Source: a virus. From it: 20,175 bases of DNA. The stretch spans positions 1 through 20,175 of the IMG/VR virus record IMGVR_UViG_3300020205_000831. The stretch is one strand, 5' to 3'. Made by a program: the position numbers and the translations under genes. The notes beneath the pieces were generated by a model. That model had not been told where the DNA came from and did not search any database. It saw only the letters and a list, made by a program, of their open reading frames with translations. Below, in pieces: positions 4,672 through 20,016 of this stretch. Within the stretch, counting starts at the first letter, position 1. Each line of letters starts with the position of its first letter.

Positions 4672-5640
4672 ATGAGCCTCATAGCTGACACTCTCCTAGC
4701 ACACTTACCTACAAAACGAAAACATACCCCAAGTGGATGGATCAGTTTTAATGCGCCCTGCTGTGACGACAAACGGCAACGTGGCGGGTTCATTATTAAC
4801 GGCGGCGATGCGGTAAGTTATCATTGTTTTAATTGCCAATTTAAATGTAGTTGGCAACCTGGTAGGACAATCAGCCAAAAAATGAACAAGTTCATGCGAT
4901 TACTCAACATGAGTGACGACATGATTAGTCAACTAAGACTTGAAGCACTACGTCTTAATGATAATTCAAATACGCAAATACAAAGCGTCATACCTAAGTT
5001 TGATGTCCGGGCATTACCAGAAGATACTGTACCTATTTCAAGTGTAGCCAACATCCCTGATAAGTTATTTCCAGTTCTAGAGTACTTGGCACAGCGTAAT
5101 TTATATCTCGAAGATTATCCGTTTTACTGGACTCCAAAGATTGGGTTTAGCAATAGAGTCATTATGCCTTTTCTATACAAAGGTGAGATTGTAGGATGGA
5201 CTGCTCGTGCTATTAATGATGCTAAACCTAAATATCTAAGCGAACAACAACCCGGATATGTGTTTAATTTAGACAGGCAAACAGACGATAGAGAATTCGT
5301 AATTGTTTGTGAAGGTCCGTTTGATGCGATAAGTATTGATGCGTGTGCGTTACTTGGCGCTGAAATTAAAGACAGCCAAAACTGGTTGCTAAAACAACTA
5401 GGTAGAGAAATTGTATTGGTACCAGACAGAGATATTGCTGGAGCAGTAACAGTTGAGCAAGCATTAGAATTTGGATGGTCAGTAAGCATGCCTGATTGGC
5501 CGGACGGTATAAAAGACGTTAATGATGCGGTAGTTAAGTTAGGTAGACTTGCTACACTATGGTTAATAGTTGAAGCAAAGGAATCAAACAGTCTTAAGAT
5601 TCAGCTTAGGGCAAAGAAATGGTTTAAGGATATAACATGA
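4672..5640 (+). CDS. 61: DNA primase (T4 gp61 / DnaG-like)
   Basis: 322 residues. An N-terminal zinc-binding region uses Cys30-Cys31 and Cys52-x2-Cys55 (NAPCC and YHCFNCQF), as in phage primases. The TOPRIM catalytic fold follows: VCEGPFDA with Glu214 and Asp218, VPDRD with Asp252 and Asp254, and KDVNDA at 281-286. Primases of this type make short RNA primers for lagging-strand synthesis and act with the gp41 helicase, whose gene is two genes downstream (6713). T4 gp61 is about 340 residues, so length fits. The ATG lies five bases after a perfect -10 box and has no ribosome site in front, so initiation may be leaderless. The stop overlaps the next start (ATGA). Confidence 0.9.
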   Translation: MSLIADTLLAHLPTKRKHTPSGWISFNAPCCDDKRQRGGFIINGGDAVSYHCFNCQFKCSWQPGRTISQKMNKFMRLLNMSDDMISQLRLEALRLNDNSNTQIQSVIPKFDVRALPEDTVPISSVANIPDKLFPVLEYLAQRNLYLEDYPFYWTPKIGFSNRVIMPFLYKGEIVGWTARAINDAKPKYLSEQQPGYVFNLDRQTDDREFVIVCEGPFDAISIDACALLGAEIKDSQNWLLKQLGREIVLVPDRDIAGAVTVEQALEFGWSVSMPDWPDGIKDVNDAVVKLGRLATLWLIVEAKESNSLKIQLRAKKWFKDIT

Positions 5641-5750
5641 ACGAAATTCTTAATTTTTTACGTAATCCATGGAGATGGTATAAAGCACGTAAAGAGTTCA
5701 AACGCAGAATTGCTGAACTCCGAAAGCGCGACCCATTTATTTACAAATGA
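5637..5750 (+). CDS. 37-residue basic protein between primase and carbamoyltransferase
   Basis: ATG at 5637 overlaps the primase stop (ATGA) and the TGA at 5748-5750 overlaps the next ATG (ATGA at 5747). Exact overlaps at both ends strongly support translation. The product (MNEILNFLRNPWRWYKARKE, then a basic stretch ending RKRDPFIYK) is an amphipathic, Arg/Lys-rich helix after a short hydrophobic start. I recall similar tiny proteins in T4-like marine phages, without function. It may bind membrane, nucleic acid or a larger phage protein; nothing here decides. Confidence 0.75.
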   Translation: MNEILNFLRNPWRWYKARKEFKRRIAELRKRDPFIYK

Positions 5751-6694
5751 TACACTGGGGTATAAACGCACTCAATCACGGCAGCAGTCTTGCTGTATTT
5801 AAAGACGGTAAATTATTAAGTTTACAGTCTAGTACAGAAGACGAGCTTCCGAGAACTTTTATTCGCAAAGAACTAGACAACGGCGCACCGCAAAGAATAT
5901 TTTGGTATGAACGTCCGTGGATTAAAAAAGCAAGACAAGTCTATGCCGGACAATACACTACAGCATTAGACTTGTCAGTATTACCAAAGAAAAAACTAAA
6001 AGATTGGAGTTTACATTATGCGCCAGTTACATACACTCCACACCATGCTAGTCACGCGGCGGCGGGTTATTATACCAGCCCTTTTAATCACTGTGCTGTT
6101 GTCGTCCTTGATGCTATCGGTGAGTTTGAATGTGCTACAATTTGGAATTGCGTTCATGGCGAAATGAAGAAAGTGTGGAGCAGAAGTTATCCACATAGTT
6201 TAGGATTATTCTATTCAGCATTTACTAAACTAGTAGGGCTTGAGCCAATCAAACAAGAATTTTTGTTACAGCAAATGAGCGATCAGGGCGATCCCATGCG
6301 GTACTATTATGATGTATTAACATATATGGATACCTTAGTCAACGCTGGTAAAAATATGCATAGAGGTATTCAAGATTGGCCACACTCAATTAATAATCTC
6401 AGTGATCAATGCGACATTGCCGCGGCCGTACAGACAGTGTTCACTGAGCAGGTATACGGCGTAATGAAAAAGGCTAAAGAATTAACCAATGCTGACTGTT
6501 TGGTTTATATGGGCGGCTGTGCCATGAATAGTAAAACAAACAAAACGGTTGTAGAGCCCATGTGGAAACACATTTGGTCCTTGCCAAATCCCGGAGATCC
6601 GACTAGTAGCATTGGCGCAGTATTATATCATACACAACAGCGTGAATGGAATTACAAGTGGGATCCTGTCAAACACATTGAAATAAAAGTATAA
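5747..6694 (+). CDS. carbamoyltransferase, NodU/CmcH N-terminal domain type
   Basis: 315 residues with the ASKHA-type N-terminal domain of the NodU/CmcH/TobZ carbamoyltransferases. It opens WGINALNHGSSLAVFKDGK, the first strand-turn-strand. HHASHAAAGYYTSPF (99-113) is the metal and nucleotide motif. VVVLDAIGE (118-126) is the second phosphate-binding motif. MGGCAMNSKTN and PGDPTSSIGAVLY form the C-terminal part of that domain. Full-length enzymes have about 550-600 residues with a separate YrdC-like domain; that half is missing here. Full enzymes transfer a carbamoyl group from carbamoyl phosphate via carbamoyl-AMP; this short form may use a partner or another substrate. Similar genes are frequent in marine T4-like phages, perhaps for modification of nucleotides or glycans. 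It lies between primase and helicase in the same operon direction. Confidence 0.85.
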   Translation: MIHWGINALNHGSSLAVFKDGKLLSLQSSTEDELPRTFIRKELDNGAPQRIFWYERPWIKKARQVYAGQYTTALDLSVLPKKKLKDWSLHYAPVTYTPHHASHAAAGYYTSPFNHCAVVVLDAIGEFECATIWNCVHGEMKKVWSRSYPHSLGLFYSAFTKLVGLEPIKQEFLLQQMSDQGDPMRYYYDVLTYMDTLVNAGKNMHRGIQDWPHSINNLSDQCDIAAAVQTVFTEQVYGVMKKAKELTNADCLVYMGGCAMNSKTNKTVVEPMWKHIWSLPNPGDPTSSIGAVLYHTQQREWNYKWDPVKHIEIKV

Positions 6695-9302: not shown

Positions 9303-9560
9303 ATGCGTTCAGGTATTTTCTATTTGCCAGAATTACACTCTTTTGAACACCTAGCCGTGGTTCCATGGCCTTGGACCACAGTCAATCAACGAGACTGGAT
9401 AGACAGTTTATTCACCCTTGAAGATTGGCTTAATAGTAGAGTCGGACCCCATTATTCAGCATGGGCCTACAGTACATATCCTAATCTTGAATATACACAG
9501 GCCTGTGTAGCATTCAAAGAAAGCCGTTATAAAACCCTATTTTTATTAACTTGGTCTTAG
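9303..9560 (+). CDS. small aromatic-rich protein, function unknown
   Basis: 85 residues with many Trp, Tyr and Pro (VVPWPWTTVNQRDWIDSLF, VGPHYSAWAYSTYP) and a short hydrophobic C-terminus (YKTLFLLTWS). No signal peptide or clear membrane helix. It follows the GNAT-like gene by 30 bases with only a weak ribosome site, and GTAAATAAT upstream could be a promoter fragment. It ends tail to tail with the minus-strand oxygenase; the two stop codons share 9557-9560. I know no family. The gene is supported by its length, the absence of an alternative frame, and the precise abutment with its neighbour. Confidence 0.6.
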   Translation: MRSGIFYLPELHSFEHLAVVPWPWTTVNQRDWIDSLFTLEDWLNSRVGPHYSAWAYSTYPNLEYTQACVAFKESRYKTLFLLTWS

Positions 9561-10255
9561 AACTCGATCCACGCATTAATTAGATATTTCTCCCCGCTAA
9601 TAGGCGGATTACCTCTGTGCGTGTGCGTATAGTTACCCGGATAGATCAACAGCGTACCCGCCTTAGACTTTTCACGACGTGGATAGTACAAGAACTCAGT
9701 TTCCCCACCTTCTTCCACATCATTCAAAAATAGCTGTACATTCATAACACGACTGGTATTTGAACGCCCAACTTGTTCCCAATGCCACACGTGGAATCCA
9801 CCACCCACTTCAGTCTTCTGAATCTTAATTTCGTAAATGCCCTGTTCAGCTTCTTCTGTGGCCAGCGCACTATACTTGGCTGTGTAAATTTGATAACAGG
9901 CCCAAACAATGGCAAGAAAGTAGTCCTGTATTCCGGGAACGCCCACAATGCCAATATTATTAACGCCTTGTTGCGGAGCACCACGTTGAGTCGCACCCGC
10001 TGAAACTGCCCGTGTTGTGTTAAAAGCAATAGTATCTTTTAAATGAGCAGGAACACCTTCTACAGTTTGACGACTGCGACCAAATCCCAGTTCATCCATA
10101 CGATTAAAGTATTTGATCACATGGGCACAATACTCGGGATCAAACGCATTTTCAAACTTGCCCACAAAGTCTTTAAAGTCCACGGTCATAGCGGGATTTA
10201 AAGGCGATTCCATTTGTTGTAATCTAGCATTTGCTGCCATACGTGTATTGTTCAT
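9557..10255 (-). CDS. prolyl-4-hydroxylase-like 2-oxoglutarate/Fe(II) oxygenase
   Basis: 232 residues of the P4H/PKHD type, different from the two other oxygenases in the window. FHVWHWEQ contains the metal pair His158-x-Glu160. LFLNDVEEGGETEFLYYP is the typical LNDVxxGGET block. AGTLLIYPGNYTHTHRGNP gives the distal His213, and GEKYLINAWIEF gives Lys223, the 2-oxoglutarate ligand of this subgroup. Members hydroxylate prolines, EF-Tu or other protein residues, and phage members are common in marine metagenomes. The N-terminus (1-30) is Ala/Asn/Met-rich and may begin later. A TTGACC box with a weak -10 (TATATT) lies just upstream, and the start follows AAGGAATCACT. First gene of the long minus-strand region as read from the left. 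Confidence 0.85.
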   Translation of the reverse strand: MNNTRMAANARLQQMESPLNPAMTVDFKDFVGKFENAFDPEYCAHVIKYFNRMDELGFGRSRQTVEGVPAHLKDTIAFNTTRAVSAGATQRGAPQQGVNNIGIVGVPGIQDYFLAIVWACYQIYTAKYSALATEEAEQGIYEIKIQKTEVGGGFHVWHWEQVGRSNTSRVMNVQLFLNDVEEGGETEFLYYPRREKSKAGTLLIYPGNYTHTHRGNPPISGEKYLINAWIEF

Positions 10256-10315: not shown

Positions 10316-10525
10316 TTATAGACCCGTTGATAAATCCTTAGTGTCATCCACATATGGGCAACAATCACTAAAGCGTAGTACAAATTCTGTGAGCACACTA
10401 GTTTCTTCTTCTATCCAAAATCGTGTGCGATTTAGATGTACTTCACAAGCAAGTTTATGATCTATGATAAACTTAAAAACCTCTCCTGCACGTGGATCTA
10501 GGGTGAGTATGTAGTATTGTCTCAT
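10316..10525 (-). CDS. small protein, function unknown
   Basis: The frame is open to 10531, but the codon there is TTG; I take ATG at 10525, giving 69 residues (RQYYILTLDPRAGEVFKFI...). Beta-alpha pattern, two adjacent Cys, acidic C-terminus, no membrane segment. A TATAAT-like box ends only a few bases from the start, with a poor -35 (TTGCCG, 18-base spacer). Two short hairpins with TTC-type loops (10546-10556 and 10572-10586) lie between it and the small membrane protein upstream. No family recognised. Confidence 0.5.
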   Translation of the reverse strand: MRQYYILTLDPRAGEVFKFIIDHKLACEVHLNRTRFWIEEETSVLTEFVLRFSDCCPYVDDTKDLSTGL

Positions 10526-10545
10526 GGTCAATTATATATCCAAAT

Positions 10546-10586
10546 CGCGAAGCGCGGCAAAATTTACAACTAGCTACGAAGTAGCT
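10546..10586 (-). other. two small hairpins in the gap before gene 10316-10525
   Basis: AGCTAC/GTAGCT at 10572-10586 (6-bp stem, 3-base loop) and CGCG/CGCG at 10546-10556 (4-bp stem). On the minus strand their loops read TTC, UUCG-like turns. No U-tract follows, so they are weak terminator candidates; they may separate the small-membrane-protein transcript from the next gene. Confidence 0.4.
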
Positions 10587-10608
10587 GCAAAGCGGTCGCA
10601 AGCAGATT

Positions 10609-10722
10609 TTACGCCCAACAGAAATAGGCCAACAAGCCAATAACTACCAGCGCAATGATCATTCTAAGGCTGGTGCGATGCATATCTTCGACAGCCTGTA
10701 GTTCAGTTTGATATTCAATCAT
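10609..10722 (-). CDS. 37-residue single-span membrane protein
   Basis: ATG at 10722 to TAA at 10609-10611. The peptide starts with a polar, acidic stretch (MIEYQTELQAVEDMHRTS) and ends with one hydrophobic helix (MIIALVVIGLLAYFCWA) that would span the inner membrane, N-terminus probably in the cytoplasm. It begins 23 bases after the stop of the 128-residue gene and shares its strand, so they are likely co-transcribed. Tiny membrane proteins are common among phage lysis, exclusion and host-interaction factors; no assignment is possible. No strong ribosome site precedes it. Confidence 0.55.
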   Translation of the reverse strand: MIEYQTELQAVEDMHRTSLRMIIALVVIGLLAYFCWA

Positions 10723-10745
10723 ATGCTATTACAAGCATTACAGTA

Positions 10746-11132
10746 TTACTTAAGGTATTGCGTTACGTATGGCAAAAACTTGTTGTTTAACCAATCAGTA
10801 ACTTGGGGGCTGGCATCTAATTTAGCACTGGTAGCGTTAGGTATGGGTTTCACTGTACGTATAAAATCCAATACTTTTTGTAGCTTATCTGGATCTGCTG
10901 AACGCAGGGAGTTTCTTATGAGTTGCTCAGCTTCTTGGGTGCGCCCTTGTAATGCTAGTAAACCAGCTCTTTTAATGGGTGCTTCAGCAAATCCCTGTTG
11001 AAGTCCTTGAAAGAAAGTAGCAGTATCTTTTGCCGTTTGATTAACAGAACCTGTTTTAGGTATGTTTTTAGCACCGATTTGAGCACCTTTGATTAGCGCA
11101 CTGTTTTCGTTAGTAATGTCTGACATTCTCAT
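10746..11132 (-). CDS. helical protein of unknown function, possibly virion-associated
   Basis: 128 residues (or 126 from ATG at 11126). Ala/Gln-rich helices with a low-complexity N-terminus (GAQIGAKNIPKTGSVNQTAKDTATFFQGLQQG) and a central helix-turn-helix repeat pattern (LLALQGRTQEAEQLIRNSL) recalling TPR-like packing. Basic and soluble. On the minus strand, AATAAATA (11160-11167) upstream resembles the T4 late promoter, which would fit a virion or assembly role. Translation initiation lacks a strong ribosome site. No family recognised. Confidence 0.6.
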   Translation of the reverse strand: MRMSDITNENSALIKGAQIGAKNIPKTGSVNQTAKDTATFFQGLQQGFAEAPIKRAGLLALQGRTQEAEQLIRNSLRSADPDKLQKVLDFIRTVKPIPNATSAKLDASPQVTDWLNNKFLPYVTQYLK

Positions 11133-11474
11133 AAAAGTTATATTTCCGTGTTATGATAATATTTATTTCGAAATGGGTTCTGTACTGTGAAAAAATCCTG
11201 CGCAAAAAAAATTAGGGAAGTACTTATACAATGGGTAGGGGTGATTTAGAGGACCATCGCTACGCTGAATGGGTCCTGCGCTCTGCGCTGAGATTCGCGT
11301 AAAAAAATAAGGAGAAGTACTTACAGATTCAGCCTGGTGATTTAGCACCTATAAACCATGAAAATTTGCTTGCGCTGTTGTAAATTAACAACAAAGAATA
11401 ATATGTATAGCCTGACCCCCACCACTCACCACCGACCTCTGATTGCCACCGATGACCGTTCTGAAAACCTAACC
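11133..11474. other. intergenic region with a three-part imperfect repeat
   Basis: No convincing gene. Two copies of an imperfect unit are spaced about 97 bases apart: an A-tract, then AAGTACTTA (11218-11226 and 11315-11323), then GGTGATTTAG (11240-11249 and 11336-11345), with the two motifs 21-22 bases apart in both copies. A third partial copy upstream shares TGGGTTCTG (11174-11182) with TGGGTCCTG (11270-11278), followed by an A-tract. On the plus strand each unit also carries a tiny open frame ending soon after (11153-11215, 20 codons; 11231-11302, 23 codons). At 11379-11396 there is a 6-bp hairpin (TGTTGT/ACAACA). 11411-11450 is very C-rich on the plus strand (G-rich on the minus). Function unknown. 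Confidence 0.5.
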
Positions 11475-11523
11475 AAAAAAAATCCTGACACAACCGGGAG
11501 CGAATCGGATTTATGTGTCAGGA
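11475..11523 (-). terminator. strong Rho-independent terminator downstream of the AAA+ ATPase gene
   Basis: A perfect 10-bp stem, TCCTGACACA (11483-11492) with TGTGTCAGGA (11514-11523), has a 21-base loop. Read on the minus strand it is followed directly by eight T (11475-11482), the classical terminator layout. The loop contains GATTCGCTCCCG on the minus strand, repeated exactly in the next hairpin. Confidence 0.75.
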
Positions 11524-11560
11524 CCACAACACCAAGGAACCTTACGGTTGACCTCAGCTC

Positions 11561-11594
11561 GGACAGTGTTCGGGAGCGAATCTACTGGCTGTCC
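11561..11594 (-). other. hairpin sharing its loop sequence with the terminator
   Basis: GGACAG (11561-11566) pairs perfectly with CTGTCC (11589-11594). The 22-base loop contains the same 12 bases, CGGGAGCGAATC on the plus strand (11571-11582), as the terminator loop (11495-11506). The stems are unrelated. There is no U-tract. Located in the 3' untranslated region of the AAA+ ATPase transcript. Confidence 0.5.
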
Positions 11595-11600
11595 TATACT

Positions 11601-11634
11601 CTAGGGCTATAGTTATAGTTACAAGCGGCCCTAG
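11601..11634 (-). other. third hairpin after the AAA+ ATPase gene
   Basis: CTAGGGC (11601-11607) pairs perfectly with GCCCTAG (11628-11634) around a 20-base loop rich in TATAGTT repeats. It starts 30 bases after the stop codon of the ATPase gene and has the same 20-22-base loop size as the two other hairpins in this stretch. Confidence 0.45.
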
Positions 11635-11663
11635 CGTAACTACTGCTCTGTACTGCCCTACCC

Positions 11664-12548
11664 TTATGCGTTGCGCATACAGGTAACACGGGCCATAGCT
11701 TGCCACTTGTCCGGAAAGGACACACGCAGGTCTGCTATCTTCAATACCATACGCAAGCTCAGCTCACGCAACTGCTTCTTGTTAGTGTCAATGAAGTCGA
11801 TAACGCCCTGCTTGTCAGCATCCTCTAGCTCATACTTGTCCAGCATGCCGTCGCCTACGATCTGTTTGATACGCAACATCTTCTCGTGCTCTGTATCAAT
11901 CGTTAGATCCAGGTAGTGGCAGCGTGACTCCAGTGCTTCCAAGTGATCACGTAGCTTCTTGCTCTTTACGTTGTCGAACTTGATGTTGGTGATAAAGATA
12001 GCGCCACCTTTAAACTCGAATGAGTTGGGCACACCTTCACGTGCCAACATGTGGCTATCCGTGTTCCAATGGATCATACGCTTGGCACTGGTGTCCAACG
12101 CAGCCTTAAGGATGTTCAAGCTCAAGTCGTCTAACAGTACTGAGTCACAGTCATCAAACACTAGAATGTTCTTAGCGTCTTTGTAGGCAAACAGCTTGGC
12201 ATACAGGCCCAGCGCACTCATAGCACCCTTGACCACTTCGTACTTCTTCAGCTTCTCGTCTTGTGCCACATTGGCCAGTAGATCGTGCTTGCTCAACACA
12301 GTCTCAACGCCGTGACTCTTGCCTACACCAGGCGGTCCACTTACAATCATAGCACGTACCTTGCCAGCCTTAACAGCTTTGGTCATGTCGTCCAGAATGC
12401 TGAATCGATCACGCAGGCGCTCCATGATCTGTTCGTCTGACTCCGTAATGACCTTTTGGACTGGCTCTTGCGCAAGGCTAAGTACTTCACCTTTGCTGGG
12501 TTTGGCTAACATATCCATTGTCACTACACGCTTTGCTTTTGCTACCAT
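11664..12548 (-). CDS. AAA+ ATPase
   Basis: 294 residues. Walker A is GPPGVGKS (71-78) after MIVS. Walker B is NILVFDDCD (127-135). IFITN at 184-188 is the sensor 1 strand, and ALESRC with Arg209 can be the arginine finger. A small helical lid (about 215-290) follows. The first 40 residues are basic and probably flexible. This is a single-domain AAA+ protein, not gp44, whose clamp-loader features are absent. Similar stand-alone ATPases are common in large phages without assigned roles; remodelling of DNA or protein complexes is the general expectation. No von Willebrand or other MoxR partner is in the window. It has its own consensus early promoter and the ribosome site AGGAGCGACA before ATG, and is followed by three hairpins including a strong terminator. 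Confidence 0.85.
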   Translation of the reverse strand: MVAKAKRVVTMDMLAKPSKGEVLSLAQEPVQKVITESDEQIMERLRDRFSILDDMTKAVKAGKVRAMIVSGPPGVGKSHGVETVLSKHDLLANVAQDEKLKKYEVVKGAMSALGLYAKLFAYKDAKNILVFDDCDSVLLDDLSLNILKAALDTSAKRMIHWNTDSHMLAREGVPNSFEFKGGAIFITNIKFDNVKSKKLRDHLEALESRCHYLDLTIDTEHEKMLRIKQIVGDGMLDKYELEDADKQGVIDFIDTNKKQLRELSLRMVLKIADLRVSFPDKWQAMARVTCMRNA

Positions 12549-12574
12549 TGTCGCTCCTAGTTGTTTAAGTATTA

Positions 12575-12603
12575 ATTATACTAGACTACTGTGTTATAGT
12601 CAA
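12575..12603 (-). promoter_or_regulatory. sigma70 early promoter of the AAA+ ATPase gene
   Basis: On the minus strand TTGACT (12598-12603), 17 bases, TATAAT (12575-12580). An inverted repeat GACTA/TAGTC (12584-12588, 12597-12601) overlaps the -35 and spacer. The leader ends in AGGAGCGACA before ATG. Confidence 0.8.
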
Positions 12604-12619
12604 CATGTTTTGGCTATCG

Positions 12620-12784
12620 TTATCTCACTTCGTACACGCTGATCACTCGGCAGTTCTGACCGTATTGTGCCTCTACCAGCGCCTTGGCCGTTTGTGGCAT
12701 GAACGCTGTGACCTGTGTGGTCACATACTGTAGATCACTAGTGCCACCTTCGATGCTGAATGTTACTTCGTATAGTGTGTTCAT
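12620..12784 (-). CDS. 54-residue protein, function unknown
   Basis: ATG at 12784, one base after the stop of the 108-residue gene, to TAA at 12620-12622. The peptide begins MNTLYEVTFSIEGGTSDLQY and ends with a beta strand (CRVISVYEVR), a compact beta-alpha-beta pattern of about 54 residues. No separate promoter and only a weak ribosome site, so translation is probably coupled to the upstream gene. The ATPase promoter follows 17 bases after the stop. I do not recognise the family. Confidence 0.65.
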   Translation of the reverse strand: MNTLYEVTFSIEGGTSDLQYVTTQVTAFMPQTAKALVEAQYGQNCRVISVYEVR

Positions 12785-12785
12785 A

Positions 12786-13112
12786 TTAATCCAACCTTGA
12801 GCAACCGTAGGCTTTAAGGCCCAGTGCTTGTAAGTAAGTGGCCATAGCGTCAGCGCCAGCGGCTTTGATGTCCACGTTCTGGACTGGGAGATTGCCTGGA
12901 TTCCACAAGCTCAAGCATTTGGGCTTGTAGTCCTTCTTAAATCCAGCGGCGATCAGCTGTTTGGCCTGAGCGGAGTTAGTACGATCCACGTAGACGTCTA
13001 CCCAAGCAAATCCACATGCGAACGCATCCTTGCGCCCCATCTGCTCATACATGGCAATTGATGCCTGCTCAGCGAGGATCTTGCCCTGCTGTACTTGTTC
13101 TGCTGTAATCAT
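12786..13112 (-). CDS. small soluble protein, function unknown
   Basis: 108 residues, alpha/beta, with four Cys and a conserved-looking centre (FACGFAWVDVYVDRTNSAQAKQLIAAGFKKDY). The N-terminus is a helix rich in Ala and Gln. No membrane segment or recognised catalytic motif. It has its own promoter (13142-13170) and the ribosome site AGGAGCGAACTAA before ATG. It is followed at one base by the 54-residue gene, forming a two-gene unit. Codon pattern and leader match the rest of the early cluster. Function not assignable. Confidence 0.75.
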   Translation of the reverse strand: MITAEQVQQGKILAEQASIAMYEQMGRKDAFACGFAWVDVYVDRTNSAQAKQLIAAGFKKDYKPKCLSLWNPGNLPVQNVDIKAAGADAMATYLQALGLKAYGCSRLD

Positions 13113-13141
13113 TTAGTTCGCTCCTAAGTGTTTAAGTAGTT

Positions 13142-13170
13142 ATTGTACTACTGAATCGCAGGGTTGTCAA
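13142..13170 (-). promoter_or_regulatory. sigma70 early promoter of gene 12786-13112
   Basis: TTGACA (13165-13170), 17-base spacer, TACAAT (13142-13147) on the minus strand. The -35 and spacer lie inside the 3' end of the 46-residue membrane-protein gene, whose stop codon is next to the -10. Confidence 0.8.
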
Positions 13171-13288
13171 CTGACTTACGCTTAGAGTACTCTATGATGC
13201 CTTCTTCCACAAACAAACTTGCGCTGAGTACTGCGAGGAACGCCCAAAGAGGCCATGTAAAATAAAACGCTTCAAGTAAGTCATTCAT
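13148..13288 (-). CDS. 46-residue membrane protein
   Basis: ATG at 13288 overlaps the TAA of the upstream gene by one base (TAATG). The stop is TAG at 13148-13150, directly beside the next -10 box. The product starts MNDLLEAFYFTWPLWAFLAV, continues hydrophobic to LSASLF, then becomes charged (EEGIIEYSKRKS). One transmembrane helix at about residues 8-27 with a cytoplasmic, basic C-terminus is likely. Its 3' end doubles as promoter DNA for the following gene. Function unknown; a membrane effect on the host early in infection is possible but not shown. Confidence 0.65.
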   Translation of the reverse strand: MNDLLEAFYFTWPLWAFLAVLSASLFVEEGIIEYSKRKSVDNPAIQ

Positions 13289-13494
13289 TATTTAACTCCC
13301 AGTTCGTTGAGTGTTTCCGCTACTTCAATTGCGTCTGCTAGTGTGTTCAGCACTACCATCAGTGCTGTTACGCCCGCAGGATCATTCTTCAAAATGCTCA
13401 TTGCGTAGGCCATGGCCTCGTCAAGCGTATCGCGTTTGGCAAAGAGATTACAACGAATCTTCTTTGTAAGTTCTGCTGTTGTCAATGCTTGCAT
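13288..13494 (-). CDS. small helical protein, function unknown
   Basis: 68 residues, almost all helix (MQALTTAELTKKIRCNLFAK, then DEAMAYAMSIL and ALMVVLNTLADAIEVAETL), a likely two- or three-helix bundle. Start supported by the ribosome site AGGAGCGACAC and by a consensus promoter 31 bases upstream. Its stop overlaps the start of the membrane-protein gene. No family recognised. Confidence 0.7.
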   Translation of the reverse strand: MQALTTAELTKKIRCNLFAKRDTLDEAMAYAMSILKNDPAGVTALMVVLNTLADAIEVAETLNELGVK

Positions 13495-13524
13495 GTGTCG
13501 CTCCTAGTGTGTCAGTGTGTAACT

Positions 13525-13553
13525 ATTATAACAGGGGATTGTTCCCCTGTCAA
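13525..13553 (-). promoter_or_regulatory. sigma70 early promoter with palindromic spacer
   Basis: TTGACA (13548-13553), 17 bases, TATAAT (13525-13530). ACAGGGG (13531-13537) and CCCCTGT (13544-13550) form a perfect 7-bp inverted repeat with a 6-base loop that fills the spacer and reaches into the -35. It begins five bases after the stop of the upstream gene, so it may be both terminator hairpin and operator. Drives gene 13288-13494. Confidence 0.8.
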
Positions 13554-13557
13554 CCAA

Positions 13558-13944
13558 TTAGTCTATCCAGCTCTCTACCATCAGCACAGGCTTCTTCAGC
13601 ACTCGTTTTACAAAGTCCTCGGGCTCGTCATCTGCACGCACTAGCACAAAGCCCATACTCTCTACCAAGTCTGTCTCGCACACTTGTAAGTCCAGACCTG
13701 CGGCCTCAAATGCTATGTTCATCTTAGTAAGGGCATACTTAACGCCTGCGTCGAAAGCCGCGTACTCTGAGTCTGCTGGGTCCTCAAAGTCGAACTCTTT
13801 CTCCATAATGTTCACGTACTCTTGTCCGTCTGCTACGATGAACTTGCCGATCTTCTTCCAGTTGCTCTGCTTCTCACTGTCAAAGTGGTCACAGGCTTCG
13901 TTCATGTCAAATGAGGCAAAGCGGTCATAATTGATATTAGCCAT
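13558..13944 (-). CDS. acidic protein, function unknown
   Basis: 128 residues, acidic, with many aromatic and Asp/Glu residues (EACDHFDSEKQSNWKKIGKF, EKEFDFEDPADSEYAAFDAG). The C-terminal half is alpha/beta (LVRADDEPEDFVKRVL). No membrane segment. Start set by the ribosome site AAGGAGCGAACCAA and a consensus promoter. The strong acidity recalls DNA-mimic phage proteins, but the charge is not extreme and no family is recognised. Confidence 0.7.
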   Translation of the reverse strand: MANINYDRFASFDMNEACDHFDSEKQSNWKKIGKFIVADGQEYVNIMEKEFDFEDPADSEYAAFDAGVKYALTKMNIAFEAAGLDLQVCETDLVESMGFVLVRADDEPEDFVKRVLKKPVLMVESWID

Positions 13945-13972
13945 TTGGTTCGCTCCTTGTTGCTATGTTTCT

Positions 13973-14001
13973 ATTATACAACTACTTTGGCTAGTTGTCA
14001 A
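13973..14001 (-). promoter_or_regulatory. sigma70 early promoter of gene 13558-13944
   Basis: TTGACA (13996-14001), 17 bases, TATAAT (13973-13978). CAACTA (13979-13984) and TAGTTG (13992-13997) form a perfect 6-bp inverted repeat around a 7-base loop filling the spacer. The same arrangement recurs at 17244. Confidence 0.8.
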
Positions 14002-14086
14002 CCTGGGCTAGCTTAGGCAGAGTCTCTAAACTCTCTTCGTATCCTTTAGTTACAACCCTTTTTGCATCTCTGCTGGGTTCTTACAT
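13991..14086 (-). pseudogene. small ORF whose second codon is TAA (broken or recoded)
   Basis: ATG at 14086 stands behind AAGGTGATCCTCAA, which aligns with the cluster's usual leader, and behind its own promoter (14119-14147). The next codon is TAA, but the frame then stays open for 29 codons to TAG at 13991-13993. The peptide (EPSRDAKRVVTKGYEESLET, then LPKLAQVDN) looks like real protein. The 3' end carries the -35 of the next promoter, as other genes here do. No other in-frame start exists. An overlapping GTG frame gives 15 residues. A point mutation, base-call error, or recoding could explain it. Confidence 0.45.
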
Positions 14087-14118
14087 TTGAGGATCACCTT
14101 GCTTGTTATTATGTGTTA

Positions 14119-14147
14119 ATTATAGCACCGATCAATAACCCAGTCAA
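14119..14147 (-). promoter_or_regulatory. sigma70 early promoter before the start-stop ORF
   Basis: TTGACT (14142-14147), 17 bases, TATAAT (14119-14124). ATAACCC (14135-14141) and GGGTTAT (14153-14159) form a 7-bp stem with the -35 box in its 11-base loop. The right arm overlaps the stop codon of the upstream gene. No intact long ORF follows for about 170 bases. Confidence 0.75.
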
Positions 14148-14155
14148 CCGAAGGG

Positions 14156-14407
14156 TTATACCAAAGCCGCTGTCTTAGGATAGCGAGTTTCGGCCTCGCT
14201 AGCCCCACAGCAATCAAACTTGACCTGCCCGTACTCTCCCAGGACTTCGACCACGATATCATCGTAGGCGGCCCACTCGATACACTCTCGACGAGCCACT
14301 TGATAGTTGTTGGTCTCAACCAGGATCTGGCGACCGCGATCATCAACCTTGGCCTCTTCATTGCTGGAATGATCAGTGACCACACGGTACTTAAATGGAT
14401 ATCTCAT
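14156..14407 (-). CDS. small protein, function unknown
   Basis: The start is ATG at 14407, overlapping the TGA of the upstream gene (ATGA); the frame is open further upstream to 14455 but only across that gene. 83 residues beginning MRYPFKYRVVTDHSSNEEAK. It is beta-alpha with a DDIVVEVLGEYGQVKFDCCGA stretch. No membrane part and no recognised family. Translation is coupled to the 128-residue gene; no separate promoter is seen. Confidence 0.7.
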   Translation of the reverse strand: MRYPFKYRVVTDHSSNEEAKVDDRGRQILVETNNYQVARRECIEWAAYDDIVVEVLGEYGQVKFDCCGASEAETRYPKTAALV

Positions 14408-14790
14408 ACTGCTTCCTTCACAAAATAACGATACGGAAGTCCCAGGAGGTAGCACAGGTACTCGTCGTCACCATCACTACTTTCTGCCTCGTGGATCCAT
14501 CGCATGGCCATCTCACGATCCTTCGCGCCGGACATCAAGAGATCCAACATACGGATCTCAAAGTCGTGTGCTGCCTTAGCTTCAGCTGCCACACGAAGCT
14601 TGTTCTCTTCGTCAATCACACGGGCCAGCTGCACGAACTCAGCTTCGAAGGTAGCCTCGTCCCAGGCTGATGTATCGATGCCACGTGGGCGAACGCCGTA
14701 GGCATCCTTGTACATGTCCCAGTAGGTGCAAGCATACTGCTCCAGGACTGTCATCTCTTCCCAGGGCTGCATGTAGTTGGTAGTAGTCAT
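14404..14790 (-). CDS. helical protein, function unknown
   Basis: 128 residues, mainly helix, acidic, with an aromatic N-terminus (NYMQPWEEMTVLEQYACTYWDMYKDAYG) and a long central helix (ARVIDEENKLRVAAEAKAAH). The C-terminus YLCYLLGLPYRYF is hydrophobic but short. The start follows AGGAGCGAAACTT and a consensus promoter. First gene of a two-gene unit with 14156-14407. No family recognised. Confidence 0.7.
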   Translation of the reverse strand: MTTTNYMQPWEEMTVLEQYACTYWDMYKDAYGVRPRGIDTSAWDEATFEAEFVQLARVIDEENKLRVAAEAKAAHDFEIRMLDLLMSGAKDREMAMRWIHEAESSDGDDEYLCYLLGLPYRYFVKEAV

Positions 14791-14824
14791 AAGTTTCGCT
14801 CCTTAGTTGCTAGTGTATGTGTAT

Positions 14825-14853
14825 ATTATAGCAAGTTTGGACTAATCAGTCAA
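14825..14853 (-). promoter_or_regulatory. sigma70 early promoter of gene 14404-14790
   Basis: TTGACT (14848-14853), 17 bases, TATAAT (14825-14830). A short inverted repeat, GACT/AGTC, surrounds the -35 side. The stretch 14798-14839 is an exact 42-base copy of 16251-16292. Confidence 0.8.
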
Positions 14854-14857
14854 CCAA

Positions 14858-15163
14858 TCAGCTTATGCCCATGAGGTCTTTGTGCATCCGGCTGATAAAA
14901 GGTTTGACCACTCGTTTCTCACGTGCGGGCTTCTTCTGTGTAAGAGCAGGAGAAGAATCAACTAGATCCTTAACACGAGCAACAACCACTAACTCACTGG
15001 GCTCGTACCATGCAACCCTCTGCTTAGAGCCTGCGGGAAGTACTAGACTCACACTGCCGGAACTCGCCACACTGTTGACCACGCACAAGGTTCCGTGTTG
15101 TGTGCGGACGATGTCTAAGGGAGCTAGTCTCAACCGCTTGCCTTCAGGGGATATCTTCTTCAT
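14858..15163 (-). CDS. basic protein with a small beta-barrel-like start, function unknown
   Basis: 101 residues. The first 65 alternate strands (LDIVRTQHGTLCVVNSVASSGSVSLVLPAG, VAWYEPSELVVVARV), suggesting a small SH3- or KOW-like barrel. The C-terminus is lysine- and arginine-rich (KKPAREKRVVKPFISRMHKD) and could bind nucleic acid or ribosomes. ATG overlaps the stop of the upstream 31-residue membrane-protein ORF (ATGA); the ribosome site is AGGAGCAAAAG. Promoter 15227-15255 can serve it. No family recognised; the barrel idea is inference. Confidence 0.7.
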   Translation of the reverse strand: MKKISPEGKRLRLAPLDIVRTQHGTLCVVNSVASSGSVSLVLPAGSKQRVAWYEPSELVVVARVKDLVDSSPALTQKKPAREKRVVKPFISRMHKDLMGIS

Positions 15164-15255
15164 CTTTTGCTCCTACGTTTGATTAGGACTAAACAAGTTA
15201 TCATTGCCACTAGGCTGATGGTATTCATTATAGCACCAAACAGTTCTATTGTCAT
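15160..15255 (-). CDS. 31-residue membrane miniprotein
   Basis: ATG at 15255 to TGA at 15160-15162, overlapping the next ATG. The peptide is a hydrophobic helix followed by a basic end (MTIELFGAIMNTISLVAMIT, then CLVLIKRRSKR), a textbook single span with positive-inside C-terminus. A second ATG at 15228 would give 22 residues. The start coincides with the -35-like box of a promoter, so the ORF might instead be leader sequence. Support is the hydrophobicity pattern and the overlap with its neighbour. Confidence 0.5.
   Translation of the reverse strand: MTIELFGAIMNTISLVAMITCLVLIKRRSKR
15227..15255 (-). promoter_or_regulatory. probable sigma70 promoter inside the miniprotein gene
   Basis: ATGACA (15250-15255), one mismatch to TTGACA, 17-base spacer, perfect TATAAT (15227-15232). 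It would give the basic-protein gene a leader of about 57 bases. Confidence 0.5.
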
Positions 15256-15259
15256 AGCG

Positions 15260-15409
15260 TTATACTCCGCGTTGTAAACGGCCCATTAGCAGGGCTGTGT
15301 ATAGTTTAGCTTTAACTTCGTCACGTACTGCCTGTGCAGCCGCTGTTTGTGGAAGTGTAAACTGTGCTACTCGTCTACGCTGTGCTAACAACACTTTAAC
15401 TGTACGCAT
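15260..15409 (-). CDS. 49-residue basic protein
   Basis: ATG at 15409 after CGGAGAAGAT, TAA at 15260-15262. The peptide starts MRTVKVLLAQRRRVAQFTLP and continues as an Ala-rich helix (QTAAAQAVRDEVKAKLYTAL) with a basic tail. A consensus promoter lies 30 bases upstream and shares an exact 30-base leader with the next gene to the right. It is followed four bases later by the membrane miniprotein. No family recognised. The promoter-leader arrangement makes it likely real. Confidence 0.65.
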   Translation of the reverse strand: MRTVKVLLAQRRRVAQFTLPQTAAAQAVRDEVKAKLYTALLMGRLQRGV

Positions 15410-15438
15410 ATCTTCTCCGTTTGCTTTACTGTACTACT

Positions 15439-15467
15439 ATTGTACTAGTTTTGGGCTAGGCTGTCAA
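15439..15467 (-). promoter_or_regulatory. sigma70 early promoter of the 49-residue gene
   Basis: TTGACA (15462-15467), 17 bases, TACAAT (15439-15444). It begins directly after the TAG of the upstream gene. Leader and -10 (15415-15444) are an exact copy of 15774-15803. Confidence 0.8.
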
Positions 15468-15767
15468 CTACTTAAACAACAAGCACAGCTGACCCAAGTT
15501 AGCCTGGTGTTGCGCAAATGCCGCAAGTTCCAGCGGCTGTACTGCGCGGGTGTAACCCTGGTAGTAGTGGTTGTGACATTGACCTTTGGTGTCCACAGTG
15601 GTCCACGCAGGATCACTTAGAGTTTTGAACATCCAAGTACCGTCAGTGGCTGGGCCAATCACTAGGTAAGTTGGCCCTACGTCCAGGCCTTTTTTGCTGG
15701 TGCCCACCACAACCTTTTGGCGAGTTTTAACTAGATGTAGCGTAGTATGTTCTTTAGTAATTAGCAT
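15468..15767 (-). CDS. small beta-rich protein, function unknown
   Basis: 99 residues. Beta-rich N-terminus (TTLHLVKTRQKVVVGTSKKG, YLVIGPATDGTWMF), then a helix at the C-terminus rich in Ala, Gln and Leu (LELAAFAQHQANLGQLCLLF). Basic overall; no membrane span. Start set by CGGAGCGAACC and its own promoter at 15798. TAG is followed immediately by the -35 of the next promoter. No family recognised. Confidence 0.7.
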   Translation of the reverse strand: MLITKEHTTLHLVKTRQKVVVGTSKKGLDVGPTYLVIGPATDGTWMFKTLSDPAWTTVDTKGQCHNHYYQGYTRAVQPLELAAFAQHQANLGQLCLLFK

Positions 15768-15797
15768 GGTTCGCTCCGTTTGCTTTACTGTACTACT

Positions 15798-15826
15798 ATT
15801 GTAAGCTCAATCTATCTGTACGTCAA
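15798..15826 (-). promoter_or_regulatory. sigma70 early promoter of gene 15468-15767
   Basis: TTGACG (15821-15826), 17 bases, TACAAT (15798-15803). The -35 and spacer overlap the last codons of the 65-residue gene upstream. Confidence 0.7.
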
Positions 15827-16004
15827 CCAATCGACCTGCTCTGAAGATATAATATTCATTGATAGGACATGAGCTGGATCCACTGCTGACCCACACGCAA
15901 TCATTCCCTGGTTGGACTGTGGCCCAGGTCTTGCCTTGTTCTTTAAGGCGATCAAGGACCACAATCAATTCGAACTCGTTGATGCCCGGCCTAACTTCAA
16001 TCAT
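15807..16004 (-). CDS. 65-residue protein, function unknown
   Basis: Starts at ATG 16004, overlapping the end of the upstream gene by eight bases. Pattern beta-alpha-beta-beta: MIEVRPGINEFELIVVLDRL, KTWATVQPGNDCVWVSSG, EYYIFRAGRLVDVQI. Two Cys. The stop codon lies within the promoter of the next gene. Coupled to the 82-residue gene; no own promoter. No family recognised. Confidence 0.65.
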   Translation of the reverse strand: MIEVRPGINEFELIVVLDRLKEQGKTWATVQPGNDCVWVSSGSSSCPINEYYIFRAGRLVDVQID

Positions 16005-16245
16005 ACGACTTCTTGTCTCCGAACTGCTCGTTGTGCTCGTAGCCTGCGTAGTAGGCTTTCATCTCAGCAAGTGACATGTCGTGTCCTTCAACGCGAGGTG
16101 CGCGACCTGTACCGTTGGGGTACTTGTGGGGACTTGGAAAGCGACCGTAATAGCTGTCAGCTGACCCGCGATCGAAAGGGCTACCATGTGACGCATCGTA
16201 TATCATGCCCTGGAATTCTTGTGTGCGATTTGTGTCTACAATCAT
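15997..16245 (-). CDS. 82-residue Gly/Tyr/His-rich protein, function unknown
   Basis: Low-complexity, polar protein with many Gly, Tyr, Ser and His (YDASHGSPFDRGSADSYYGR, FPSPHKYPNGTGR) and one helical segment (SLAEMKAYYAGYEHNEQF). It is probably largely disordered outside that helix. The start follows AGGAGCAACAA and a consensus promoter. A DxGSADSYYGRxxxPHxYP pattern of this sort is one I associate loosely with small T4-like phage proteins of unknown role. Downstream, the 65-residue gene overlaps it by eight bases. Confidence 0.65.
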   Translation of the reverse strand: MIVDTNRTQEFQGMIYDASHGSPFDRGSADSYYGRFPSPHKYPNGTGRAPRVEGHDMSLAEMKAYYAGYEHNEQFGDKKSYD

Positions 16246-16334: not shown

Positions 16335-16409
16335 TGGTCCGGCGTCCAGGAATCGAACCTGGATTAATAGCTTAGAAGGCTACTGTTCTATCCGTTGAAC
16401 TAACGCCAG
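16335..16409 (-). tRNA. tRNA-Arg(UCU)
   Basis: 75 bases including encoded CCA (16335-16337). Acceptor CTGGCGT/ACGCCGG (one G-T pair), discriminator A. D arm GTTC/GAAC, anticodon stem GTAGC/GCTAT, loop CTTCTAA with anticodon TCT. T arm CCAGG/CCTGG with loop TTCGATT. All arms fold. It reads AGA and AGG, frequent codons in the AT-rich plus-strand genes. Separated from the second tRNA by four bases, so probably processed from one transcript. Confidence 0.92.
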
Positions 16410-16413
16410 GAAT

Positions 16414-16489
16414 TGGTGGGCCCACCTGGATTCGAACCAGGGACCAAAGGATTATGAGTCCTCTGCTCTCACCGCTGAGCTATAGGCCC
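16414..16489 (-). tRNA. tRNA with anticodon CAU, probably tRNA-Ile2
   Basis: 76 bases including encoded CCA (16414-16416). Acceptor GGGCCTA/TGGGCCC, D arm AGCTC-type, anticodon stem GAGGA/TCCTT with loop CTCATAA, T arm CTGG/CCAG with loop TTCGAAT. Anticodon CAT can be Met or Ile2, in which C34 becomes lysidine and AUA is read. The anticodon arm and variable region (ACTCATAATC, TTGGTC) resemble E. coli ileX more than elongator Met. T4 also encodes Ile2. Pairing with tRNA-Arg(UCU) suggests help with AUA and AGA codons. Confidence 0.88.
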
Positions 16490-19759: not shown

Positions 19760-19999
19760 CTAGTAGTCGGCGGCAACCGTACCTGTTGTAGGGTTATAGT
19801 TAAGAAACACTTTAGCTTCTAACAAGCCAAAGTCCTCATCCTCGTACTCAACTTTATAGCAGAACTGCCCGCTGTTAGTCATGCCCAGAAATTTAGCTGT
19901 TGTGAAGGAGTCCCCTTTGTATCCTGCGAGGTGGATTGCGCGAGTAAGCGCAGGGGCTGTAAACGAAGTTAGTGTGTTTAGTTGTTCAGCTAAAATCAT
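19760..19999 (-). CDS. 79-residue protein, function unknown
   Basis: Alpha then beta: MILAEQLNTLTSFTAPALTR, AIHLAGYKGDSFTTAKFLG, then strands (QFCYKVEYEDEDFGLLEAKV). Soluble, slightly acidic. Start set by AAGGAGCGAACT. It begins 17 bases after the stop of the gene at the right edge, with no promoter between, so the two are probably in one operon. No family recognised. Confidence 0.65.
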   Translation of the reverse strand: MILAEQLNTLTSFTAPALTRAIHLAGYKGDSFTTAKFLGMTNSGQFCYKVEYEDEDFGLLEAKVFLNYNPTTGTVAADY

Positions 20000-20016
20000 A
20001 GTTCGCTCCTTAGTTG

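Follow-up and report, generated by a model that had tools for sequence, protein, structure and literature searches.

What is the role of two hairpins that carry the same loop on different stems and lie behind an AAA+ ATPase gene? The window that raises this question is an entire virus record of 20,175 bases, and its predicted proteins include a DnaB-type helicase, a primase, and a carbamoyltransferase. There was no near relative among the phage isolates compared with it, and a genome search for the host turned up no relative. The hairpins probably belong to an RNA switch by which the phage would shut down its own early genes.

Hairpins behind the AAA+ ATPase gene

The original prediction described two hairpins, with stems of 10 bp and 6 bp, that share a 12-base loop motif, one of the two being a terminator, and we found all of these features (Table 1). 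The window has just two exact copies of the motif, CGGGAGCGAATC, at 11495-11506 and 11571-11582. Allowing up to two mismatches gives four matches versus 0.55 expected, a number reached in none of 100 shuffles. On the minus strand the order is the AAA+ ATPase gene (hereafter AAA gene), about 70 nt, the 5' hairpin with its 6-bp outer stem, the 3' hairpin with its 10-bp outer stem, and a run of eight U (A8 on the plus strand, 11475-11482). The 3' hairpin, with a minus-strand fold of -18.5 kcal/mol, has the G+C-rich stem followed by a U-run that characterizes Rho-independent terminators, as does its counterpart in relatives. Within it, an inner 3-bp CCG/CGG stem encloses the loop AUUCGCUCC (11497-11505), and a G-C pair closes this loop in each hairpin. 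As a single sequence the 5' hairpin is unremarkable (z about -0.3); the evidence that backs it is comparative.

Table 1. Positions of the AAA gene, the hairpin RNA and its predicted targets in the window
Feature	Position	Strand	Remarks
AAA+ ATPase gene (phrog_1250, T4 nrdC.10 homologue)	11664..12548	-	The 3'UTR belongs to this gene, which is also a predicted target
RNA / 3'UTR, probable extent	11475..11663	-	From AAA stop codon to end of U-run; transcript predicted
5' hairpin	11561..11594	-	6-bp outer stem 11561-11566/11589-11594; same loop AUUCGCUCC at 11573-11581
3' hairpin, Rho-independent terminator	11475..11523	-	10-bp stem 11483-11492/11514-11523; U8 at 11475-11482
Predicted target GGAGCGA, RBS of AAA gene	12551..12557	-	Loop duplex -13.1 kcal/mol
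Predicted target GGAGCGA(A), RBS of gene 12786-13112	13118..13124	-	-13.9 kcal/mol
Predicted target GGAGCGA, RBS of gene 13288-13494	13498..13504	-	-13.1 kcal/mol
Predicted target GGAGCGA(A), RBS of gene 13558-13944	13950..13956	-	-14.3 kcal/mol
Predicted target GGAGCGA(A), RBS of gene 14404-14790	14796..14802	-	-14.1 kcal/mol
Predicted target GGAGCGA(A), RBS of gene 15468-15767	15771..15777	-	-14.4 kcal/mol
Predicted target GGAGCGA(A), RBS of gene 19760-19999	20003..20009	-	-13.9 kcal/mol

The homology of the AAA protein to T4 nrdC.10 follows the annotation of KVP40. Homologues are present in 1,234 phage records, none with more than 60% identity. The family, AAA+ ATPases with no assigned function, has been retained in more than 1,200 phage records, mostly T4-related.

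Close relatives of the AAA gene in IMG/VR are followed by a pair of GGGAGCGAATC loops on differing stems. A scan for paired loops matched at least 120 stretches, part of them repeat-rich genes that were left out by demanding a G-C closing pair. In at least 91 fetched loci, some of which share a contig, GATTCGCTCCC is present on one strand at least twice. Each RNA has two to four loop copies, the last of them in the terminator loop. In several relatives (locus L005 and similar ones) a third hairpin that lacks the motif (AAAAACCC...GGGTTTTT) stands between two motif hairpins. PA5oct and KVP40 have the AAA gene, but the space behind it is too short for such a 3'UTR hairpin, and the annotated lncRNA near the AAA gene of PA5oct has no obvious repeated anti-RBS loop.

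The original prediction read a conserved loop on free stems as a recognition element and proposed a covariation search in relatives, which bore it out: across dozens of contigs the loop GAUUCGCUCCC and its closing pair are invariant, and the variable stems show strong compensatory changes. When 26 5' hairpins were aligned without gaps, 98.3% of the cells paired, and all seven outer-stem pairs (7/7) had changes on both sides. Compensatory cells number 59 versus 16.4 by shuffling, and the covariation score is 0.741 versus 0.197, with none of 500 shuffles reaching the real score; the signal is lost when the partner is slid by one to three columns. When 3' regions were folded, the loop sequence fell in a predicted hairpin loop in 116 of 171 cases, versus 15% of positions generally.

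We also considered a plus-strand transcript, whose loop would mimic a ribosome-binding site (RBS). The stems contain nine G-U pairs and no A-C pairs when read on the AAA strand, which is also the strand with the U-run, and we therefore take the AAA strand to be the selected RNA and reject the plus-strand reading. In relatives the distance between the first loop and the stop codon of the AAA gene is -1 to 92 nt, and the first hairpin often overlaps that codon. No dedicated promoter was seen by eye, and no conserved promoter is apparent upstream, so that an origin from the 3'UTR is favoured.

Complementarity to ribosome-binding sites in the window

The loop had been predicted to pair with the RBS of early genes over at most 6 nt (CGCTCC with GGAGCG). 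The complementarity stands, and the length was underestimated: UUCGCUCC of the loop is complementary over 8 nt to GGAGCGAA, the RBS of genes in the same cluster. The heptamer GGAGCGA occurs nine times in the window versus 1.0 expected. On the plus strand it is found as the two loop copies, and on the minus strand as seven copies, each just upstream of an ATG; it is thus the Shine-Dalgarno sequence of seven minus-strand genes and of no plus-strand gene in the window. Several further minus-strand genes have GGAGCA or a similar Shine-Dalgarno sequence. Many early genes match incompletely, with GGAGCA or GGAGCAG and only 5-6 pairs to the loop.

At the seven exact sites the loop matches 7-8 nt, with predicted duplex energies of -13.1 to -14.4 kcal/mol, and the same leaders pair with the 16S tail at -5.8 to -8.3 kcal/mol. 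Control pairings with the loop gave -1.0 to -8.4 kcal/mol for plus-strand leaders and an average of -5.2 for shuffled leaders. Complementary sites are enriched in RBS windows on the same strand. A chance origin of the loop copies and their matches is ruled out by the shuffles, the excess of GGAGCGA, and recurrence in relatives.

Many minus-strand genes have a TATAAT-like hexamer 20-30 nt before the RBS (upstream regions within 12548-16245), so that each of them may be transcribed from a promoter of its own, with a very short leader. Such sites, the short leaders, and the lack of structural genes in the coded cluster suggest that its genes are early.

Two similar non-coding stretches just past the terminator (11210-11360), 'GGGAAGTACTTATACAAT...GGGGTGATTTAGAGGACC' and 'GGAGAAGTACTTACAGATTC...TGGTGATTTAGCACC', form an imperfect direct repeat.

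Joint variation of loop and ribosome-binding site

To follow loop and RBS between lineages we assembled a set of 214 distinct AAA loci. When hexamers recurring in the hairpin loops behind the AAA gene were sought without bias, essentially two families emerged, TTCGCTCC and (T)GCCCTC; loci of the first are called type A, and those of the second type D, with a looser set D?. Type A loci, which have UUCGCUCC loops, include 272 RBS windows with GGAGCGAA and one with GAGGGCA. In a related clade with GCCCUC loops at the same place, GAGGGCA is found in 97 (type D) and 66 (D?) RBS windows, and GGAGCGAA in none. Control windows further upstream contain far fewer coded sequences, and both codes are missing from sister clades that lack such loops. 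Type D loops also fall in predicted hairpin loops (32 of 51, versus 11%).

The letters of type A RBSs are, by position, GGAG-C(73%)-G(54%), versus C(54%)-G(15%) in a no-loop clade. Given that C after GGAG is also favoured (54%) in clades without an RNA near the AAA gene, only the following bases discriminate. Type D RBSs read GAGG-G(71%)-C(69%), and the same letters reach 21% and 11% on the opposite strand. Scored at 176 loci for the loop and for two or more coded RBSs, type A yielded 80 loci with both, 80 with neither, 14 with the loop only, and 2 with the RBSs only; the corresponding numbers for type D (176 loci) are 30, 142, 2, and 2. The AAA tree implies only about four loop changes for type A and three for type D, and with some three to four independent changes a tree-based sign test has no power and independent-pair tests cannot reach significance. 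On this tree the RBS nearly always tracks the loop or is neutral, as in nearly all informative pairings.

Two exceptions, L403 (loops GUCGCUCC) and L188, have RBSs that match the loop poorly. L403 was considered as a further co-variant (type B) and not counted, its RBSs being mostly GGAGCA. Another candidate (type C, L023, with UUGCUCC loops and GGAGCAA sites) fits but is weak evidence, being a single contig whose GGAGCAA sequence is found in loop-free contigs too. Four further loci (L255, L256, L260, and L211) have an AAA gene without adjacent loops and nevertheless share a GGAGCA-type RBS extension; they may have an unlinked partner RNA.

Coded RBSs are also concentrated in the genome. A contig of 185 kb has 16 GGAGCGA RBSs, of which 15 are located at 20-40 kb in a stretch that ends at the RNA near 40 kb; its gene for the major head protein has AAGGAGAA and no GGAGCGA. 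Type D contigs of 155-268 kb have their GAGGGCA start sites grouped within 7-10 kb of sequence next to the RNA. Two of these contigs have 11 of 12 and 12 of 16 sites there, and several have 9-13 clustered sites; in the no-loop sister clade there are two such sites in approximately 348 kb (five contigs). Overall, coded RBSs of large contigs are gathered in about 10 kb next to the RNA, and each cluster has about 10 separate genes with GGAGCGAA or GAGGGCA. The RNA is located within this cluster or at its end, on the same strand, and the AAA gene that carries it is itself a predicted target.

That last point admits a reading in cis only, by which the AAA 3'UTR would fold onto its own RBS, autoregulating the AAA gene or circularizing its message, and the other RBS matches would be a by-product of a shared style. 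The RBS of the AAA gene is indeed GGAGCG in 69 of 73 scorable type A loci, and the position of the first loop, often at the AAA stop codon, would suit this reading. A distinct clade of 17 rows argues against it: other genes follow the AAA gene, and the same loop A hairpin lies behind one of them, approximately 800 nt past the AAA stop, yet the RBS is again GGAGCGAA. Regulation in cis also has no need of a code on about 10 genes per cluster, which in the window each lie near their own TATAAT-like site, and we regard it as unlikely.

Could the loop instead be a site for a phage or host protein, such as a terminator or antiterminator factor or one of RNA decay or stability, with no relation to RBSs? 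Many protein-bound hairpins likewise have an invariant loop and closing G-C pair on variable stems. Such a site predicts neither that many RBS extensions, in two sequence versions, equal the loop's reverse complement, nor that loop and code are absent together from sister clades, and we consider it very unlikely. Any GGAG Shine-Dalgarno sequence can pair with CUCC, and the RNA might on that basis target host messages for host shut-off, the match to phage RBSs having other reasons. The added CGAA or GCA letters fit the early RBSs of the phage rather than a general host Shine-Dalgarno sequence, and they change together with the loop, making host targeting extremely improbable. The original prediction that the loop pairs with early leaders thus gains from the joint change of loop and RBS between type A and type D, and the sequence comparisons strongly support a pairing partnership.

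A predicted switch and its known counterparts

Our proposal starts from a conserved, structured element on the sense strand, the complementarity of its loops to RBSs, the co-variation of the two, and the clustering of coded RBSs beside the RNA. From these we infer the transcription, stability, and processing of the RNA, its action in trans, and the direction and timing of its effect. The hairpin pair would form the 3' end of the transcript of the nrdC.10-like AAA-ATPase gene, and a stable, trans-acting RNA would probably be processed from this 3'UTR. The 9-nt loop AUUCGCUCC of each hairpin would form a duplex of up to 8 nt with GGAGCGAA, which early genes of the cluster have as an extended Shine-Dalgarno sequence. 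Because this pairing would cover the Shine-Dalgarno sequence, 30S ribosomes would be kept off. Translation of the early regulon, including AAA, would fall as the RNA builds up, a delayed negative feedback whose outcome would be an RNA counterpart of early shut-off by T4 RegA/RegB. On the present evidence it is likely that translation of an early regulon, the RNA's own AAA gene included, is repressed by a phage RNA that stems from a 3'UTR and has several anti-RBS loops.

RNAs that block a single RBS are already known in phages. A regulon-wide anti-RBS RNA, with an early gene cluster sharing one extended RBS that co-evolves with the RNA loops, is to our knowledge undescribed; we found no description of the hairpin RNA in literature coverage that excluded most subscription journals and all bioRxiv preprints. 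Some bacterial small RNAs derive from 3'UTRs, and these, together with the anti-Shine-Dalgarno 'cuckoo' RNAs of alphaproteobacteria, consist of the 3' end of an mRNA including the terminator and have loops complementary to the Shine-Dalgarno sequence. The term 'cuckoo RNA' occurs in PMC10746234. Both kinds differ in being chromosomal and in complementing the Shine-Dalgarno sequence generally, whereas the hairpin RNA fits a lineage-specific extended RBS.

In mechanism the hairpin RNA is nearest to the c4 RNA of phage P1 and LhrC of Listeria, and in role to RegA/RegB of T4. The c4 RNA of phages P1 and P7 has loops complementary to an RBS and blocks translation (PMC12197685). Like the hairpin RNA, it is phage-encoded with RBS-complementary loops, but its target is the region around the RBS of the ant message and its role is in phage immunity, whereas the hairpin RNA presents one loop sequence two to four times and matches the RBSs of an early cluster. 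LhrC of Listeria monocytogenes has repeated UCCC sites, one of them in the terminator loop (PMC4132741). The hairpin RNA is similar in having several UCCC sites, including the terminator loop, with GCUCCC in both loops. In contrast, LhrC is bacterial and stress-induced, its sites are CUCCC(...)UUUU rather than GAUUCGCUCCC, and it has no known whole-regulon RBS code that co-varies with the loop.

Sequence does not fix the direction of the effect, and pairing could in principle protect, stabilize, or titrate early mRNAs (a sponge or an activator) rather than repress their translation. We think this quite unlikely: the predicted pairing covers the Shine-Dalgarno core itself, and c4 RNA and LhrC, which pair at that core, repress (PMC12197685, PMC4132741). 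In T4, the messages of early genes are silenced by RegA/RegB at their translation start or Shine-Dalgarno sequence, RegB cleaving early transcripts within the latter (PMC3014915). Both systems would achieve early shut-off at the translation start, by proteins in T4 and by an RNA here. RegA/RegB models gave no match on 13 relatives, on which the control models were silent too.

If confirmed, the hairpin RNA would enable large T4-related phages to shut off early genes by means of an RNA, a task for which T4 uses the proteins RegA and RegB, and would account for RBS letters of phages that the ribosome does not need. It would also mean that nature offers a set of anti-RBS regulators that are distinct from each other, and it would make early genes of uncultured phages recognizable by sequence alone; the element is carried by the window phage and by many relatives that are known solely through metagenomes. 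More speculatively, each lineage of large T4-related phages may have a private RNA 'address code', written throughout the RBSs of its early regulon and, reversed, in the loops of one RNA, as an off-switch at the early-to-late transition that works without RegA/RegB-type proteins. As lineages have different codes, the early genes of a superinfecting phage could then be silenced by a resident phage with the same code and not by one with another. We offer this extension as a doubtful, though possible, one.

A search of Rfam with window positions 10500-13200 (E up to 5) gave no match, including to C4 antisense RNA and LhrC, and six relatives gave only tRNAs and one glutamine aptamer; the hairpin RNA matches no Rfam family. 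The glutamine riboswitch aptamer is at 4698-4747 of a type D contig (L214) and is perhaps a hint to the host.

Other genes of the window were noted. There are two tRNA genes, Arg (TCT) and Met (CAT), at 16335-16489 on the minus strand, and the region of the Met tRNA gene has 91% identity to a stretch of Pseudomonas phage phi3 annotated as integrase/recombinase. A 2OG-Fe(II) oxygenase is encoded at 9557-10255 (minus strand). The carbamoyltransferase is Nol-like and looks truncated (5747-6694, plus strand); the 185-kb relative encodes a full-length carbamoyltransferase.
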